64,000 bases of DNA from Promicromonospora sukumoe (GTDB taxonomy: Bacteria; Actinomycetota; Actinomycetes; Actinomycetales; Cellulomonadaceae). The notes beneath the pieces are model-generated. The model was given only the letters and a program-made list of their open reading frames with translations, was not told the DNA's origin and did no database searches. Numbering within the stretch: position 1 is the first letter of the stretch; each line of letters opens with the position of its first letter. Shown here piece after piece: positions 39,135 through 48,245 of the stretch. The position numbers and the translations under genes were made by a program. The stretch lies in assembly GCF_014137995.1 (NCBI RefSeq), contig NZ_JACGWV010000002.1, positions 868,001-932,000 of the forward strand, written 5' to 3'.

Positions 39135-39578
39135 TCAGTCGTCGCGGCGTTCGATCTTCGCGACTTCTGACCGCCAAATCTCTCGTACGGGATGACCGTC
39201 GCTGTCGAAAAAGGTGTACGAAGTACCGTCCCCGGACCTCTCGTACCTCGCGGCTGAAATCTCAATCTTGTCCCCGCCCCACGTGCTGGACTTGACCCTC
39301 GGATTCGCCAGGGAGCCAGATGTCGAAGTGATGGAGCTTGTGCGCGTCGTAACGACATATGTGCTCATCTTGGGCCGCGCGAGTCGGGCGAGGACAGCTG
39401 GGTAAAAGGCACCCACGAGCAGCAATGATGCGCCGAAGAAGGCGAGCGTGACCCGGACCCAGACGGTCTCGATGACGGGCAGTTCCCAACCCGCCGCCTT
39501 CACGCCGCCGGAGACGATGGCCGCCAGGACGCACAAGATGCCACTGGTGGCGTAGATCGCTCGCAAGCTGTCAGTCAC
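39135..39578 (-). CDS. Hypothetical two-helix membrane protein
   Basis: About 147 residues with two transmembrane helices (about residues 5-28 and 35-65) followed by a soluble C-terminal domain of about 80 residues with a Y-T-F-F-D-S-D-G-H-P-V-R-E-I-W pattern. I prefer the GTG at 39578, which has CGGGAG about 9 bases upstream; six more codons upstream are open. Family unknown. The stretch 39579-39873 to its right contains nothing I can support. Confidence 0.6.
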   Translation of the reverse strand: MTDSLRAIYATSGILCVLAAIVSGGVKAAGWELPVIETVWVRVTLAFFGASLLLVGAFYPAVLARLARPKMSTYVVTTRTSSITSTSGSLANPRVKSSTWGGDKIEISAARYERSGDGTSYTFFDSDGHPVREIWRSEVAKIERRDD

Positions 39579-39873
39579 GACACAAATCTCCCGCACGAAG
39601 TGGACCCGAGCAATGAATCAGGATGGATTGGGACTCCCGCTAGACCTACGCTGCTGGCGGGACGCTACGCGTTACCCCCCTGGTTGAGCACCGGCGGTCT
39701 GTCGGATACCCGGGGATTCACTTGGGTCGCACGACGACCACAGCCCGACGGCCGATATGCCAGACAGCCGAAGAGGCGAGGCCACTTCATGAAGGCATCC
39801 CCGAATGGACGGGACACCCGCCCTGGCAGTGGATCCGCCGCCAGATCGTCGATCGCTCGGACAGTTGGGCTGC

Positions 39874-41370
39874 CTAACCTCTCGGCGCCACGGGGATGAT
39901 TCTGGAAGCTGTGTGCTGCAGGAAATCCTCGGCCGCGGCAAGGGCACGCAGCCGGAACGGACTCCTCTTGGTCGCGCGCTCGTGGACGACCGTGCGCCAG
40001 TCTTCACGATGCTCAGCGATCGGGGTGCGGGCGTCGCCGGAGGCTGTCGCGTTCTCGTAAGGACAGTGCAGGCCGGACTTCGCGCTGGAGTGCTCGAGAG
40101 AGTGAGTGGACAGGATGTAGCGCAGTGGTGCCGGGATGCCACGGCCGCCCGGGTGGGCGGTCAGGCTCACAAACTGCGCCAGCAAGGCGCCGCTGACGCT
40201 CGCGGAGAGCGCGGCGACGTTCTGCCGGGAAGGCGCATCTCGATGAGCTCCAGCGATGTACTCCGGGTCGTCGAGCAGCCCTCCCTTATCCAAGGAAATG
40301 TCGCCCATGACTAGCTGTCCAAGGCAGACCATGCAAGGGCTGCCGGGCACCAGGGTGTGTGCGCGCCAGATCCCGTTGCGCATCCGCCCGTCGGGGAAAG
40401 TATCGAGTGCGATCCCACCATCGATGACCGGGATGAGATCCGCATAGGCGATCGCGTTAAGCACTGCGCGCGGCCAGGGTCCATCAACGCAAGAGAAGAT
40501 GACGTCGTAGTCGAGTGCAGCGCTTAGCCCGACGGGGTCGGTGATGCTGAGCTCGTGGAGTCGAACCTGAAACGACTCCGCAGTCGCGGACGACTTCATA
40601 AGACGCGCAGCGACTTTGACCTTGGACCGTCCGAGTGCGGCGTCGAGACGGGTCGCGCCGATCATGCGATCCAGATTCACCGTCTCTACCGCGTCGTAGT
40701 CCATCACGCCTACCGTCGCTAGGCCCGTTGCGGCGAGGCGCTGCGCGACGTCGAGACCGACGCTGCCGCTGCCGACGACCAGGACACGCAGGCGAGAGAT
40801 CGAAGCCTGCGTGCGCTCGCCCCACGATGAGACCGTGCGCTGCTGTGAACGTGTCACCCGGGGGATGCGACGAAGCTCGTCATTCCAGGTGACGGCGAGC
40901 TTCGGCGAGACCGATCGCACTGACTCCGCCCATGTGGGTCCACTTCGGTCAAACCAGAAGCGGGCCGACCAGGAGATGTCACGTCCGCCAAGCGTCATGC
41001 CGAGGAGGGGCATCTTCGTGATCCCGCGTGCGACGCGCTCGTACTCAGACTCAGTTTCCTTGTCCATGTTGCTGAGCTGTTGCCAGCCGCGGCCTCGTGG
41101 GTGGGAATGAAGGAGCACGACTCCGTGGCCAAGCGCACGCGCCTGCGTCGATGCGCGTAGAACGTATCCGCTGGTGAAGGACGCGTTGCCGTGCACGTGC
41201 CGCTCGCCCTCTCGGGGGAAGATCACCGACTTGATGAGGGCCGTCGTACGCTCATTGCCGGTAGAACGGGCGTAGGTTGCGATGAGCACGTCTTCCTGCC
41301 CGTCGTCGCGGAGGAGGTGATCCCGCATGGTCGCTTCGACCTCGCCCGTCATGGCCACGGAGTACCGCAT
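39874..41370 (-). CDS. JAB deubiquitinase-like - E1/ThiF adenylyltransferase fusion
   Basis: The 498-residue protein combines two ubiquitin-pathway enzymes. Residues 1-150 are a JAB/MPN+ metalloprotease: Glu26 upstream, then H-S-H-P (His88, His90) followed by S-N-M-D (Ser100, Asp103), the JAMM zinc site with a slightly long spacer. Residues about 180-420 are an E1/ThiF domain with VVGSGSVG (188-195), M-D-Y-D (Asp of strand 2), and N-L-D-R-M. A CMVC pair and a later HCP segment look like zinc ligands. It would adenylate the Ubl C-terminus and also process it or remove it. I chose the ATG at 41370, one base after the E2 stop. Third gene of the operon. Confidence 0.85.
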   Translation of the reverse strand: MRYSVAMTGEVEATMRDHLLRDDGQEDVLIATYARSTGNERTTALIKSVIFPREGERHVHGNASFTSGYVLRASTQARALGHGVVLLHSHPRGRGWQQLSNMDKETESEYERVARGITKMPLLGMTLGGRDISWSARFWFDRSGPTWAESVRSVSPKLAVTWNDELRRIPRVTRSQQRTVSSWGERTQASISRLRVLVVGSGSVGLDVAQRLAATGLATVGVMDYDAVETVNLDRMIGATRLDAALGRSKVKVAARLMKSSATAESFQVRLHELSITDPVGLSAALDYDVIFSCVDGPWPRAVLNAIAYADLIPVIDGGIALDTFPDGRMRNGIWRAHTLVPGSPCMVCLGQLVMGDISLDKGGLLDDPEYIAGAHRDAPSRQNVAALSASVSGALLAQFVSLTAHPGGRGIPAPLRYILSTHSLEHSSAKSGLHCPYENATASGDARTPIAEHREDWRTVVHERATKRSPFRLRALAAAEDFLQHTASRIIPVAPRG

Positions 41371-41371
41371 G

Positions 41372-41752
41372 TCAGGCTGCCGTCGGGATCGCCGTGGAGA
41401 CAAAACCCCGCACGTGCCTCAGCCACGCGAGGGCCGGCGGCACAGACGTGTCGGTGTAGTTGAACTCGCGGGAGTGTCGCTTCCATCCGGGCGGGCAGTC
41501 AGTGTCGTCCATGTTCGTCAGGGTGAACGTGACCGAATCAGGTAGGTGGATCCAGTGCGGCGGGACGGCAGGCCAGCTCTGCACCTCGGACACGCTCACA
41601 CCGGTGGTCACAACCTGCCCCGCAAGCGCGCCGTGGACAGCCATCACATCGTAGAGAATCCGGTGGCCGTCGGCCCGCGCCGGGGCGCCCACAGCAGTCA
41701 TGTCATCGACGAACTGCTGGGCCGCCCCGGTCAGGACGACAGTGCCGCTCAA
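41372..41752 (-). CDS. E2-like conjugating protein of bacterial ubiquitin operon
   Basis: A 126-residue protein between the Ubl and the E1 genes. It has the segment P-P-H-W-I-H-L-P-D-S-V-T-F (residues 64-76), then D-C-P-P-G-W-K-R-H-S-R-E-F (85-97), with Cys86 as candidate active-site cysteine and His69 and His93 nearby. This pattern resembles the prokaryotic E2 (Prok-E2_E-like) proteins that accompany multiubiquitin genes; the family assignment rests partly on context. The TTG start at 41752 overlaps the Ubl stop as TTGA, and no better start with a ribosome site is visible. No transmembrane segment. Confidence 0.72.
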   Translation of the reverse strand: MSGTVVLTGAAQQFVDDMTAVGAPARADGHRILYDVMAVHGALAGQVVTTGVSVSEVQSWPAVPPHWIHLPDSVTFTLTNMDDTDCPPGWKRHSREFNYTDTSVPPALAWLRHVRGFVSTAIPTAA

Positions 41753-42186
41753 GCGACACCGCCAACGTGCTTGGCGGTGACGAACTCGTCACCGGACTTG
41801 ATCTTGACGAGCTGATCGTCGCGGAACAGTTCGGTGTCGCCAGATGGCCGGATGCGTGCGAGGTCGTAGCTGGCGGGGTCCACGCCTGCGAGACGAAGTA
41901 GGGCGGCCGCGCTCTGGTCGTCGTCATATGAGCTATGGGATTCGCCATCGATGGTGAATCGGACCTTCTCGCGAGAGGCGAACCGCGCGCCGTCCTTGAG
42001 GTTGACGATCTGACCGTCACCGATCCGGTCCTCGACACCGTTCTTCTTCACGAGGAAGAGGTCGAAGGTCTTCGGGTCTCGGCCAGCGAGTCGCAGGAGC
42101 GCAGAAGCTTCCTGGTCCTCGTCGTGCACGGTGAACGTCTTGTCATCGATGACGACCTGCAGGGGCGTCGGAGTTGAGGGGGCCAT
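41749..42186 (-). CDS. Tandem ubiquitin-like (multiubiquitin) protein
   Basis: A 145-residue protein made of two beta-grasp Ubl repeats, residues about 9-71 and 74-140. Both repeats share A-L-L-R-L-A-G-x-D-P-x-x-x-D-L (29-43 and 95-109), which shows the duplication. The C-terminus is H-V-G-G-V-A, so the di-glycine is masked by Val-Ala and would need trimming before activation, a natural job for the JAB domain encoded downstream. The ATG at 42186 follows an excellent GGAAGGAGG ribosome site. First gene of the operon; divergent from the HigB-like gene. Confidence 0.85.
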   Translation of the reverse strand: MAPSTPTPLQVVIDDKTFTVHDEDQEASALLRLAGRDPKTFDLFLVKKNGVEDRIGDGQIVNLKDGARFASREKVRFTIDGESHSSYDDDQSAAALLRLAGVDPASYDLARIRPSGDTELFRDDQLVKIKSGDEFVTAKHVGGVA

Positions 42187-42283
42187 CTGGCCCTCCTTCC
42201 TTGTAGCGTGTCGCTCCCGCATCCCAGATCGGACGCAGGTAGCATGTACCTGTCGGGTAAAGCCCACCGTACCACAAGTACCA

Positions 42284-42300
42284 TTTACCAAAGAGGTAAA
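42284..42300. promoter_or_regulatory. Dyad at the TA promoter, candidate HigA operator
   Basis: TTTACC-AAAGA-GGTAAA (arms 6 bp) ends four bases before the TTG start of the toxin and overlaps its ribosome site GAGG. Related GTACC and GGTAA half-sites lie just upstream (about 42245-42280), in the divergent space shared with the Ubl operon, so binding could affect both. Confidence 0.55.
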
Positions 42301-42303
42301 GTC

Positions 42304-42657
42304 TTGCAGCTAGGGTGGTCAGACCCTCGGCTCGAGGGCTGGTGTCTCACCGGAGCGCGCCTCAGCGCTACCCTCGGCGCGCACGCCGACGCAGCAGAGG
42401 ACCTGCTACACGTCGTCTCCCAGGCCCCCCGGCTCGAGCACCTAGCCACATTCCAAAGCGTCCAAATCGACGTCGACGCCGGAAACCTGACCCTTTCGAT
42501 CGAGGAGGTTGACATGCACGCACGACCGCTCAGCCCCGATGGTGCGCCGTACGTCCTTGCGAACCGGGCGTCGTTGCCAGATCACGCCCTGTCCCAAGCG
42601 CTCCTTGTCCAAGATCTCCTCATTCAGGGCCAGTCGATCCTCCGACTCAAGGGCTGA
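42304..42657 (+). CDS. HigB-like (proteic killer) toxin candidate
   Basis: A 117-residue protein directly upstream of a HigA-like antitoxin. The start is a TTG at 42304 with GAGG seven bases before it; no ATG or GTG gives the conserved N-terminus. The opening G-W-S-D-P-R-L-E-G-W-C, the helix with A-A-E-D-L-L-H-V-V and the L-E-H-L-A-T-F segment resemble RelE-fold killer proteins in order and spacing, but the usual catalytic basic residues are sparse. I am less sure of ribonuclease activity than of the TA role. It is 10 bp from the antitoxin gene. Confidence 0.65.
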   Translation: MQLGWSDPRLEGWCLTGARLSATLGAHADAAEDLLHVVSQAPRLEHLATFQSVQIDVDAGNLTLSIEEVDMHARPLSPDGAPYVLANRASLPDHALSQALLVQDLLIQGQSILRLKG

Positions 42658-42667
42658 TCGAGACCTC

Positions 42668-43771
42668 ATGACTACGTACACCGCCACCGATGCCCACTTC
42701 GATTTCCCGCCTCGCCCTGGTCGCTTGCTGCAACGAGAGCTCGACGCACGCTCTATCAGCCAAGCGCAACTAGCTGCGCGCACTGGGTTGAGCCCGAAGC
42801 ACATCAATCTCGTCATCAAGGGAACGGCCCCGGTTTCGCCCGATGTTGCAGTCACCCTCGAGCAGGTACTTGGAACATCTGCCGAAACCTGGCTGCGGCT
42901 AGAAGCGGCGCATCAGGCACAAGAAGCACGACACGAAAAGCGCAACGCTCTCGAAGGTTTCGCCGACTGGGCGAAGGCTTTTCCTCGCCGAGTTCTCATC
43001 GACCGAAACGTGATTGATCCTGAAGACTCAGGCGCTGAACTCGTAGCAAAACTTCTCGCCTTCTTCTCAGTCGCGTCGCCGAGCGCGTACACGAAAACCT
43101 GGCTCGAGCCACAAGCGTCCTACAAGAGAAGCCAAGTCCATGCCATCGATCCGAACTTAACAGCGCTCTGGCTGCGGCTGTCCGAGCTGCACGCGGCTGA
43201 CCTGATTGCCGACACGCAAATGTATGATCCGGCAAGGCTGCGAGCCGCTGCTGCAACGATTCCCCGGCTCACTGTCCATGACGCAGGAAAAGCATTCAAA
43301 GAAACGCAGAGCCTTCTGCTTGACGCGGGTGTGGTTCTCGTGTTTGTGCCAGAGATCCCGAACACGCGGATCAGCGGCGTTTCACGATGGATACACGGAA
43401 CGCCAATGATCGCGGTAACCAGTCGATACAAGTCTTTCGACGGGCTCTGGTTTACGATTCTGCACGAAATTGCTCACGTACTTCTTCACCCCAAGAGAAG
43501 CACTTTTATAGATGACGGCTTCAAGGCAAACGACGATGCGGACTCGCAGGAGACCGCCGCAAACGCGTTTGCTGAAGACCACCTGATTCCACCGGACTAC
43601 CAGGCCATCCTCTCCGCGGCAACGACGGCAGAGGCGATCCGCTCGCTCGCCGACACACTCGGCGTGTCTCCCAGCGTGGTCGCAGGGCAGTGGGCCTTCC
43701 GGACCAGCACCTGGGGCGGGCCGATCGCCAAGCTACGCAAGAAGGTTGACCTCGCTGAGGTACTCACGTAG
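42668..43771 (+). CDS. HigA-type antitoxin with ImmA/IrrE-like peptidase domain
   Basis: The 367-residue protein has an N-terminal HigA XRE helix-turn-helix (about residues 13-80; I-S-Q-A-Q-L-A-A-R-T-G-L-S-P-K-H-I-N-L-V-I-K-G, then P-D-V-A-V-T-L-E-Q-V-L-G) and a C-terminal ImmA/IrrE zinc-peptidase domain (about 215-340) with H-E-I-A-H (about residue 265) and a downstream E-T-A-A-N-A-F-A. The base composition is lower in GC than the surroundings, consistent with recent transfer. It should bind the toxin or operator; the peptidase could respond to stress or phage by cleaving a partner. Divergent from the ubiquitin-like operon. Confidence 0.85.
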   Translation: MTTYTATDAHFDFPPRPGRLLQRELDARSISQAQLAARTGLSPKHINLVIKGTAPVSPDVAVTLEQVLGTSAETWLRLEAAHQAQEARHEKRNALEGFADWAKAFPRRVLIDRNVIDPEDSGAELVAKLLAFFSVASPSAYTKTWLEPQASYKRSQVHAIDPNLTALWLRLSELHAADLIADTQMYDPARLRAAAATIPRLTVHDAGKAFKETQSLLLDAGVVLVFVPEIPNTRISGVSRWIHGTPMIAVTSRYKSFDGLWFTILHEIAHVLLHPKRSTFIDDGFKANDDADSQETAANAFAEDHLIPPDYQAILSAATTAEAIRSLADTLGVSPSVVAGQWAFRTSTWGGPIAKLRKKVDLAEVLT

Positions 43772-47480: not shown

Positions 47481-48245
47481 ATGACACGCACCCGTACCGC
47501 TGGCGGACCGTACGTGCGTGAAGCCCGCGCGGACCGCCTCCCGTCGGAGGGCTGGCCGTTCACCATCCCCGCGGTCCGAGCGCTGGCCGACGGTGATGTG
47601 CTCGACCTGGACCACCCGGTCACGTTGCTGTGCGGGGACAACGGAAGCGGCAAGTCCACCCTCGTCGAGGCCATCGCCGCCGCTGCCGGTTTGAACGTCG
47701 AGGGCGGGTCGCGGAACTTCCAGTTCAGCACCCGCACGACGGAGGTGCCCCTTGCTGAGCACCTCCGTCTGGTGCGGCATCCGGGCCGCCGGCCTCGGGA
47801 CGGGTTCTTCCTGCGGGCAGAGTCGTACTTCAATGTCGCGTCCGAAATCGAACGCCTCGACCAAGAGCCCGACACTCCACCACTTCTGCCCACCTACGGC
47901 GGCGTCTCGCCCCACGAGCGGTCTCATGGTGAGTCGTTCCTGGACCTGGTGACGCACCGGTTCGGAACCGACGGGCTCTATGTGCTGGACGAGCCCGAGG
48001 CGGCACTGTCGGTGACTGGTTGCATGGCGCTGCTGGCCCAGGTGATGGAGCTGTCCGAAGGCGGGTCGCAGTTCATCATCGCCACGCACTCACCGATCCT
48101 GCTGGCCATCCCCGGCGCAGTCATCCATCAACTGGACGAGCATGGCTTCGAGCGCCTGGAGTACGACGACACACTCCCGGTGGTCACGATGCGCGCGTTC
48201 CTGGCTGACCCCGCCCGGTTCGTGCACCGCCTCCGGGCCGACTGA
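47481..48245 (+). CDS. AAA/ABC-type ATPase (SMC-like, single-chain)
   Basis: A 254-residue protein with Walker A G-D-N-G-S-G-K-S-T (about residues 51-59), Walker B L-Y-V-L-D-E-P-E-A-A-L-S (about 171-182) and a switch His in A-T-H-S-P. There is no membrane domain and no long coiled coil, so it is of the OLD/AAA_21 small-ATPase kind often found in accessory and defence clusters. It lies divergent from the kinase gene and convergent with the radical SAM gene. The role in the cluster is unknown. Confidence 0.8.
   Translation: MTRTRTAGGPYVREARADRLPSEGWPFTIPAVRALADGDVLDLDHPVTLLCGDNGSGKSTLVEAIAAAAGLNVEGGSRNFQFSTRTTEVPLAEHLRLVRHPGRRPRDGFFLRAESYFNVASEIERLDQEPDTPPLLPTYGGVSPHERSHGESFLDLVTHRFGTDGLYVLDEPEAALSVTGCMALLAQVMELSEGGSQFIIATHSPILLAIPGAVIHQLDEHGFERLEYDDTLPVVTMRAFLADPARFVHRLRAD

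Follow-up and report, generated by a model that had tools for sequence, protein, structure and literature searches.

The 64,000-nucleotide stretch of Promicromonospora sukumoe DNA analyzed here (the window) carries, at 39874-42186 on its minus strand, three genes that we assign from their sequences to the Bub-type operons, as a diverged branch of the architecture predicted in 2006 as 'type 6e'. The genes encode a ubiquitin-like protein (Ubl), a protein with the fold of a ubiquitin-conjugating enzyme (E2), and a fusion of a JAB (JAMM) enzyme with a ubiquitin-activating enzyme (E1). The operon is probably a mobile, regulated cassette for the conjugation and deconjugation of its Ubl, and it represents a mostly actinobacterial branch whose common chemistry would not pass through a thioester; we hold this reading with good, though not firm, confidence. 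The assignment draws on the gene set, the JAMM and adenylation motifs, the conservation of the operon, its plasmid relatives and a gene with helix-turn-helix (HTH) and M78 domains that has a matching operator, while the E2 fold rests on a confident predicted model. The three genes are as follows.

41749..42186, minus strand: Ubl (BubA-like), 145 aa, two tandem Multi_ubiq domains (PF14452)
41372..41752, minus strand: E2-fold protein (BubB-like), 126 aa (AlphaFold2 model, Foldseek, VIA)
39874..41370, minus strand: JAB(JAMM)-E1(ThiF) fusion (BubCD-like), 498 aa (BubCD match, ThiF, JAMM residues)

A sequence-only reading of the window had described three overlapping or abutting genes, and the start and stop coordinates confirm this. 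The Ubl gene runs from an ATG (42186-42184) to a stop (41751-41749), and the E2 gene opens with a TTG (41752-41750) that shares bases with that stop (TTGA). A scan of genome contigs with the E2 gave 26 loci (L001-L026); the same overlap is present in L001-L014, where the E2 start is GTG or ATG. The JAB-E1 gene starts with the ATG at 41370, a single base beyond the stop of the E2 gene. The Ubl matches Multi_ubiq over two stretches (E 1.6e-13; 51 bits against a cut-off of 24.5), and its repeats, recognized as related in the earlier reading, are 37% identical over 67 aa and are followed by the C-terminus ...KHVGGVA. The third protein does combine on one polypeptide the JAMM residues Glu26, His88, His90 and Asp103 with the E1 site GSGSVG, as had been noticed, and Ser100 is also present. 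Its E1 half matches ThiF (E 6.5e-25) and residues 6-395 match Citrobacter BubCD (PDB 9ea4; E 1.8e-18); a Pfam JAB match was not obtained for this protein. Asp103 aligns to the residue altered in the BubCD D104A entries (chain index 106) when the wild-type BubCD chain is used; the alignment to the mutant chain is shifted by one.

The E2-fold protein has 183 homologues at E<=0.01, and the Ubl is upstream of the E2 gene in all 26 loci while JAB-E1 is downstream in 25, the only locus lacking it (L016) stopping at a contig edge. Because of these homologues and the retained gene order, the operon is not a chance association. The Ubl has 391 homologues at E<=0.001. The best 120 of the 183 E2s and the best 120 of the 391 Ubls served as the close sets. 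A divergent E2 set, the best 120 of 864, was drawn with a profile built from ten divergent E2s; as nine of these ten lack the cysteine discussed below, the draw is biased to cysteine-lacking proteins, and it consists of sequences only, with no genomic context.

The window has the Multi_ubiq Ubl, the N-terminal JAB-E1 fusion and an E2/RWD-fold protein between them, which are the features that define Bub and type 6e operons, and matches and neighboring genes thus bear out the compact operon of the Bub/multiubiquitin kind that had been proposed. The window operon resembles Bub (Citrobacter BubB/BubCD, PDB 9ea4 and 9eae, and the enterobacterial plasmid locus L044) in its Multi_ubiq Ubl, its E2-fold protein and its fused JAMM-E1 with the same domain order. 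It differs in that Ubl and E2 are two genes rather than fused as in L044, its E1 has a CxxC motif not seen in the L044 BubCD, its Ubl has a Val-Ala tail, its regulator is different and it has no adjoining DUF6527 gene. Its E2 also falls below Prok-E2_E detection and has PPHW(I/V)HLP and HSR motifs where Prok-E2_E relatives have WSRH. The anti-phage Bil system (BilABCD) likewise unites a Ubl with E1, E2 and JAMM enzymes in a single operon. Its E1 and JAMM enzymes come from different genes and its E2 is a cysteine enzyme; by this definition the window is set apart, as E1 and JAMM are fused in one 498-aa frame. A closer parallel in gene order is found on a Jiella pelagia plasmid (L048), where divergent HTH and M78 genes are followed by Ubl, E2 and a ThiF-type gene and, as in the window, DUF6527 is not listed; there, however, the HTH and peptidase are separate genes, the Ubl is split across two annotated genes, the E2 plainly belongs to Prok-E2_E (E 1e-49) and the tail is TTEGGA.

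The passages on type 6e in Iyer, Burroughs and Aravind 2006 (PMC1779556) describe the same architecture as that of the window, a polyUbl with an inactive E2/RWD protein and a JAB-E1, with the E2-like gene standing by itself between the other two, and list such an operon for an actinobacterium, Frankia. In those passages the E2-like domains lack a cysteine, whereas one clade of the window's family has a conserved one, and a metal-binding gene 'Y' is described that is not seen in the window's adjacent downstream gene (PMC1779556). That gene (39138-39596) gave no match to DUF6527 or a metal-binding accessory protein, which agrees with the earlier remark that the extra small gene of multiubiquitin operons is not visible. 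The accessory gene is frequent rather than universal and was not taken as defining: DUF6527 is listed in five of seven other plasmid loci and in none of six actinobacterial plasmid loci, for which the gene tables are incomplete.

Whether the 126-aa protein folds like an E2 was one of the points on which the earlier reading could have failed, and it held. The AlphaFold2 model is E2-like with a predicted local distance difference test score (pLDDT) of 90.4, and the BubB chain 9eae_C ranks first in both the Foldseek and the VIA searches of the PDB with this model. At the sequence level the protein has no match in Pfam (including Prok-E2_E, PF14462), PADLOC or NCBIfam, and a profile search of PDB sequences with the E2 alignment returned nothing up to E 10. 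The distant members L025 and L026 score 14.6 and 14.1 bits for Prok-E2_E against a cut-off of 25, and three other members give no score. Aligned with hhalign to five Prok-E2_E-type sequences, the family reaches a probability of 54% (P 1.3e-4, 71 columns); of the five, all but L052 and L053 were themselves compared with Pfam, and what is called 'BubB' in this comparison comes from a Leclercia plasmid rather than from Citrobacter. Prok-E2_B (PF14461) was without a match in the window's own genome and likewise in the control genomes, so that this search is uninformative. Among the matches listed, the nearest named E2 is from Promicromonospora (94%), and relatives are named 'hypothetical' or 'uncharacterized' except for one source's nicotinamidase-related entry (P0300).

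The E2-fold protein could be an inactive adaptor of the RWD/UEV kind, with the E1 or an unseen factor making the bond. VIA ties BubB with the UEV domain of TSG101, an inactive E2, and the E2-like domain of type 6e is termed inactive in the relevant passages of Iyer et al. 2006 (PMC1779556). Conservation argues for more than an adaptor's role: among the listed matches of both sets, Trp60, Pro64, Pro65, His66, Trp67, His93, Ser94, Arg95, His113 and Arg115 are identical in 241 of 241 E2s, and His69 and Trp110 are kept in 240; His66, His93, Ser94, Arg95, His113 and Arg115 in particular exceed what a pure adaptor would need. In the most distant loci, L025 and L026, His93 is replaced by Trp and Trp60 by Phe, and the conserved residues could form an interface. 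We regard an inactive adaptor as rather unlikely.

A canonical thioester cascade is the other chemistry to be considered. In such a cascade Cys86 of the E2 would accept the Ubl after the JAMM enzyme had trimmed Val-Ala to a bare Gly-Gly before activation. Cys86 lies, as first described, in D-C-P-P-G-W, eight residues before Ser94 by sequence, and of the 121 close E2s (the window's and the best 120 of 183) 120 retain it. Within the near clade the residue is thus nearly invariant. Its conservation does not extend further: L001-L015 have Cys86 (15/26) and L016-L026 lack it (11/26), and in the biased divergent set only 13 of 120 have a cysteine in that column, 102 having a gap, so that 107 lack it. 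Any cysteine in columns 80-92 was found in 16 of these 120; L017 has one three columns after the Cys86 position. Because L016-L026 lack the residue and few divergent matches have it, Cys86 does not appear to be common to the whole family.

The Ubl tail follows a similar pattern. Among the close Ubls (best 120 of 391) all 120 end in Val-Ala and 116 in GGVA, which, with the JAMM residues in place, is what trimming to Gly-Gly predicts; the other four end GAVA, GDVA, GNVA and GPVA. In the window and the 26 loci together, Val-Ala closes 25 of 27 Ubls and GGVA 14 of 27, L025 ending in VV and L026 in VE, and the residue preceding Val-Ala is variously G, P, Q, S, D, T or E. The Ubls of actinobacterial plasmids end in Val-Ala in six of six cases and in GGVA in two. 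In L013, L015, L046, L055 and L056 the E2 has its cysteine yet the Ubl lacks Gly-Gly. The Val codon varies synonymously, and in the Ala codon no base but the third could be constrained by the overlap with the E2 start; thus, Val-Ala is kept as protein. As Val-Ala is kept more widely than Gly-Gly, removal of a masking Val-Ala by the JAB enzyme, as first proposed, may hold in the clade with both Cys86 and Gly-Gly but cannot be the rule of the family. The pattern is the reverse of that of a usual Ubl precursor, whose trimmed tail should vary freely, and suggests that Val-Ala either is the end that becomes activated or serves the JAMM enzyme for recognition.

The E1 half adds to this evidence. The cysteines of the window's JAB-E1 are only Cys294 (in CVD), Cys346 and Cys349 (CxxC) and Cys436, and in the family alignment no further column reaches 25 cysteines among the 26 E1s. 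By analogy with MoeB and ThiF, the CxxC...C is probably a zinc site, and the E1 crossover stretch, placed by the same analogy, has no conserved cysteine in the alignment. Nine of the 26 E1s (L015, L017-L022, L025 and L026) have a cysteine in an S-I-C motif (S-V-C in L025). Eight of these nine come from operons without Cys86, and L001-L014 have Thr at this position; both cysteines occur in L015, and neither in L023 and L024. Thioester chemistry may hold within the Cys/GG clade, not for the family, and as an account of the family we consider it unlikely.

Upstream of the operon lie the features of its probable control, a divergent gene pair and, between this pair and the Ubl gene, two operator sites.

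42247..42261, minus strand: operator 2, TTTACC-CGACA-GGTA (motif scan)
42284..42300, no strand: operator 1, palindrome TTTACC-AAAGA-GGTAAA (motif scan)
42304..42657, plus strand: SMALL, divergent, about 117 aa, no family assigned, start codon uncertain (homologues beside the operon)
42668..43771, plus strand: REG, HTH (HigA-like) and ImmA/IrrE M78 metallopeptidase with a HEIAH motif, 367 aa (PF06114, PF01381)

The earlier reading suggested a complete minimal three-gene form; the form is indeed compact, but SMALL, REG and the shared operator were missed. REG matches PF06114 (E 3.6e-13) and PF01381 (E 6.8e-10) in Pfam and, in PADLOC, PD-Lambda-2_B (E 8.7e-33), capP (E 1.4e-8) and capH (E 0.015). 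SMALL has no Pfam or PADLOC match, and its AlphaFold2 model (pLDDT 45.6) is useless. Both genes lie beside the operon in 10 of the 26 loci, two further loci have a relative of REG but no SMALL, and window-type REG is also found at the plasmid loci L045 and L049. Across the 6.5 Mb of the genome, TTTACC-N5-GGTA matches only twice, each time ahead of the Ubl gene; the number expected in the window is 0.00. Among 32 relatives, the motif precedes the Ubl gene in all 12 that carry window-type REG and in no other, in two copies in 11 of them and in one in L049; L021 has one match, placed elsewhere. The close relatives L005 and L010, which have another regulator, lack the site. Loci L013, L014 and L046, with the other HTH-M78 subtype, have ATCACC-N5-GGTGAT instead, but L055 and L056, which share that subtype, have neither motif. 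Regulator and operator thus appear to change together among relatives. In L005 and L010 the upstream sequence differs, and REG's place (L005:4408-7395, L010:4406-7420) is taken by an HTH protein, a serine/threonine kinase-like protein (judged by eye) and a 500-aa protein. A study of Bub operons (PMC13373217) counts 219 of 544 with DNA-damage regulators, either CapW or CapH+CapP. REG is probably their counterpart in fused form, although PD-Lambda-2_B scores far better.

SMALL and REG might instead be a toxin-antitoxin neighbor (HigBA-like or PD-Lambda-2-like) rather than the regulator of the operon. REG scores above the cut-off for the HigA antitoxin (TIGR02607) as well as matching PD-Lambda-2_B, and two Rhodococcus plasmids hold a RelE/ParE-annotated gene in this place, of which the one tested matches HigB (PF05015). 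The joint exchange of regulator and operator before the Ubl gene speaks against this, and SMALL was rejected as a HigB (hhalign probability 0.5%, no family match). We judge a toxin-antitoxin pair to be improbable. A sulphur-carrier (ThiS/MoaD-like) pathway, suggested by the ThiF/MoeB superfamily of the E1 half, is very hard to reconcile with the JAMM fusion, the E2-fold partner, the tandem Ubl, BubCD as the best solved match and a Gly-Gly tail that is not family-wide.

The reading that we prefer is therefore a regulated conjugation and deconjugation cassette with a common chemistry other than the thioester. REG would repress both directions at its two operator sites, and its M78 peptidase would lift repression upon a stress signal. 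The E1 half would adenylate the Ubl C-terminus and pass the Ubl, by way of the E2-fold protein, to an amine or hydroxyl group of a target, from which the JAMM half would remove it. The only cysteines common to the aligned E1s are that of CVD and those of the presumed zinc site CxxC...C, and Cys86 is missing from many E2s; the chemistry common to the branch is therefore probably independent of a cysteine thioester. It would probably run through the conserved E2 core (His66, Ser94-Arg95, His113 and Arg115) and the Val-Ala end of the Ubl, and Cys86 would have been gained within its clade or lost outside it. Two points weigh against this reading and lowered our confidence slightly, namely the replacement of His93 in L025 and L026 and the biased divergent draw. 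Unusual intermediates have reportedly been described for Bub by Ye et al.

The operon is probably a sporadic, mobile cassette. Relatives of JAB-E1 occur on plasmids of Pseudarthrobacter, Clavibacter, Rhodococcus, Nocardioides and mycobacteria. By record title, 22 of the 26 loci come from actinobacteria; the other four belong to metagenome bins of other groups (Spirochaetia, Chloroflexota, Hyphomicrobiales and Myxococcota), which may be misbinned. Multi_ubiq is present in 13 of 396 Actinomycetota genomes (11 above cut-off), and within 3.2-kb loci the E2 family was found at four of these 13, the window's own genome included. A full-length E2 was found in none of 12 other genomes of the genus; two weak matches there (G403 and G406) were set aside as partial, with 241-244-aa frames and no Ubl or JAB-E1 within their 3.2-kb loci. 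The G+C content is 60-66% at 38-44 kb compared with 68-77% in the first 38 kb. Together, the low G+C content and the absence of a full-length E2 from the 12 genomes support acquisition. An insertion boundary was not set, as blastn against three genomes of the genus aligned only a sulfotransferase gene. Beyond the dip, the G+C content stays lower (65-70%) through the rest of the window, which points to an acquired or variable region of large extent. About 4 kb past REG, a 254-aa protein (47481-48242) matches the AAA_21 and AAA_15 ATPase families (Pfam: putative AbiEii toxin) and is perhaps another defense gene. On a haloarchaeal plasmid (Halorarius, L050:2611-4943), three abutting genes for a 110-aa protein, a 145-aa protein without a Pfam match and a ThiF-type protein may be the same kind of operon.

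An anti-phage role for the window operon would be borrowed by analogy from Bil. Bacterial Ubl systems appear to act mainly in phage defense according to a review (PMC12687455), and the Bub study cited above reports that Bub operons were not shown to protect against phage (PMC13373217). The E2-fold family bears no Pfam label, and its homologues with and without cysteine in one operon type pose directly the question of whether a bacterial E2 needs a cysteine, just as the same operons ask whether a Ubl needs Gly-Gly. The exchanges of regulator and operator offer a ready test of how tagging operons switch on. A bolder possibility, which we put forward tentatively and consider doubtful, is a Ubl cascade without glycine or cysteine, in which the Val-Ala C-terminus itself is activated and joined and the diverged His/Ser/Arg core of the E2 performs the transfer. 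If that were true, the branch with Gly-Gly and Cys86 would turn the family into a natural gradation from E2 chemistry without cysteine to E2 chemistry with it.
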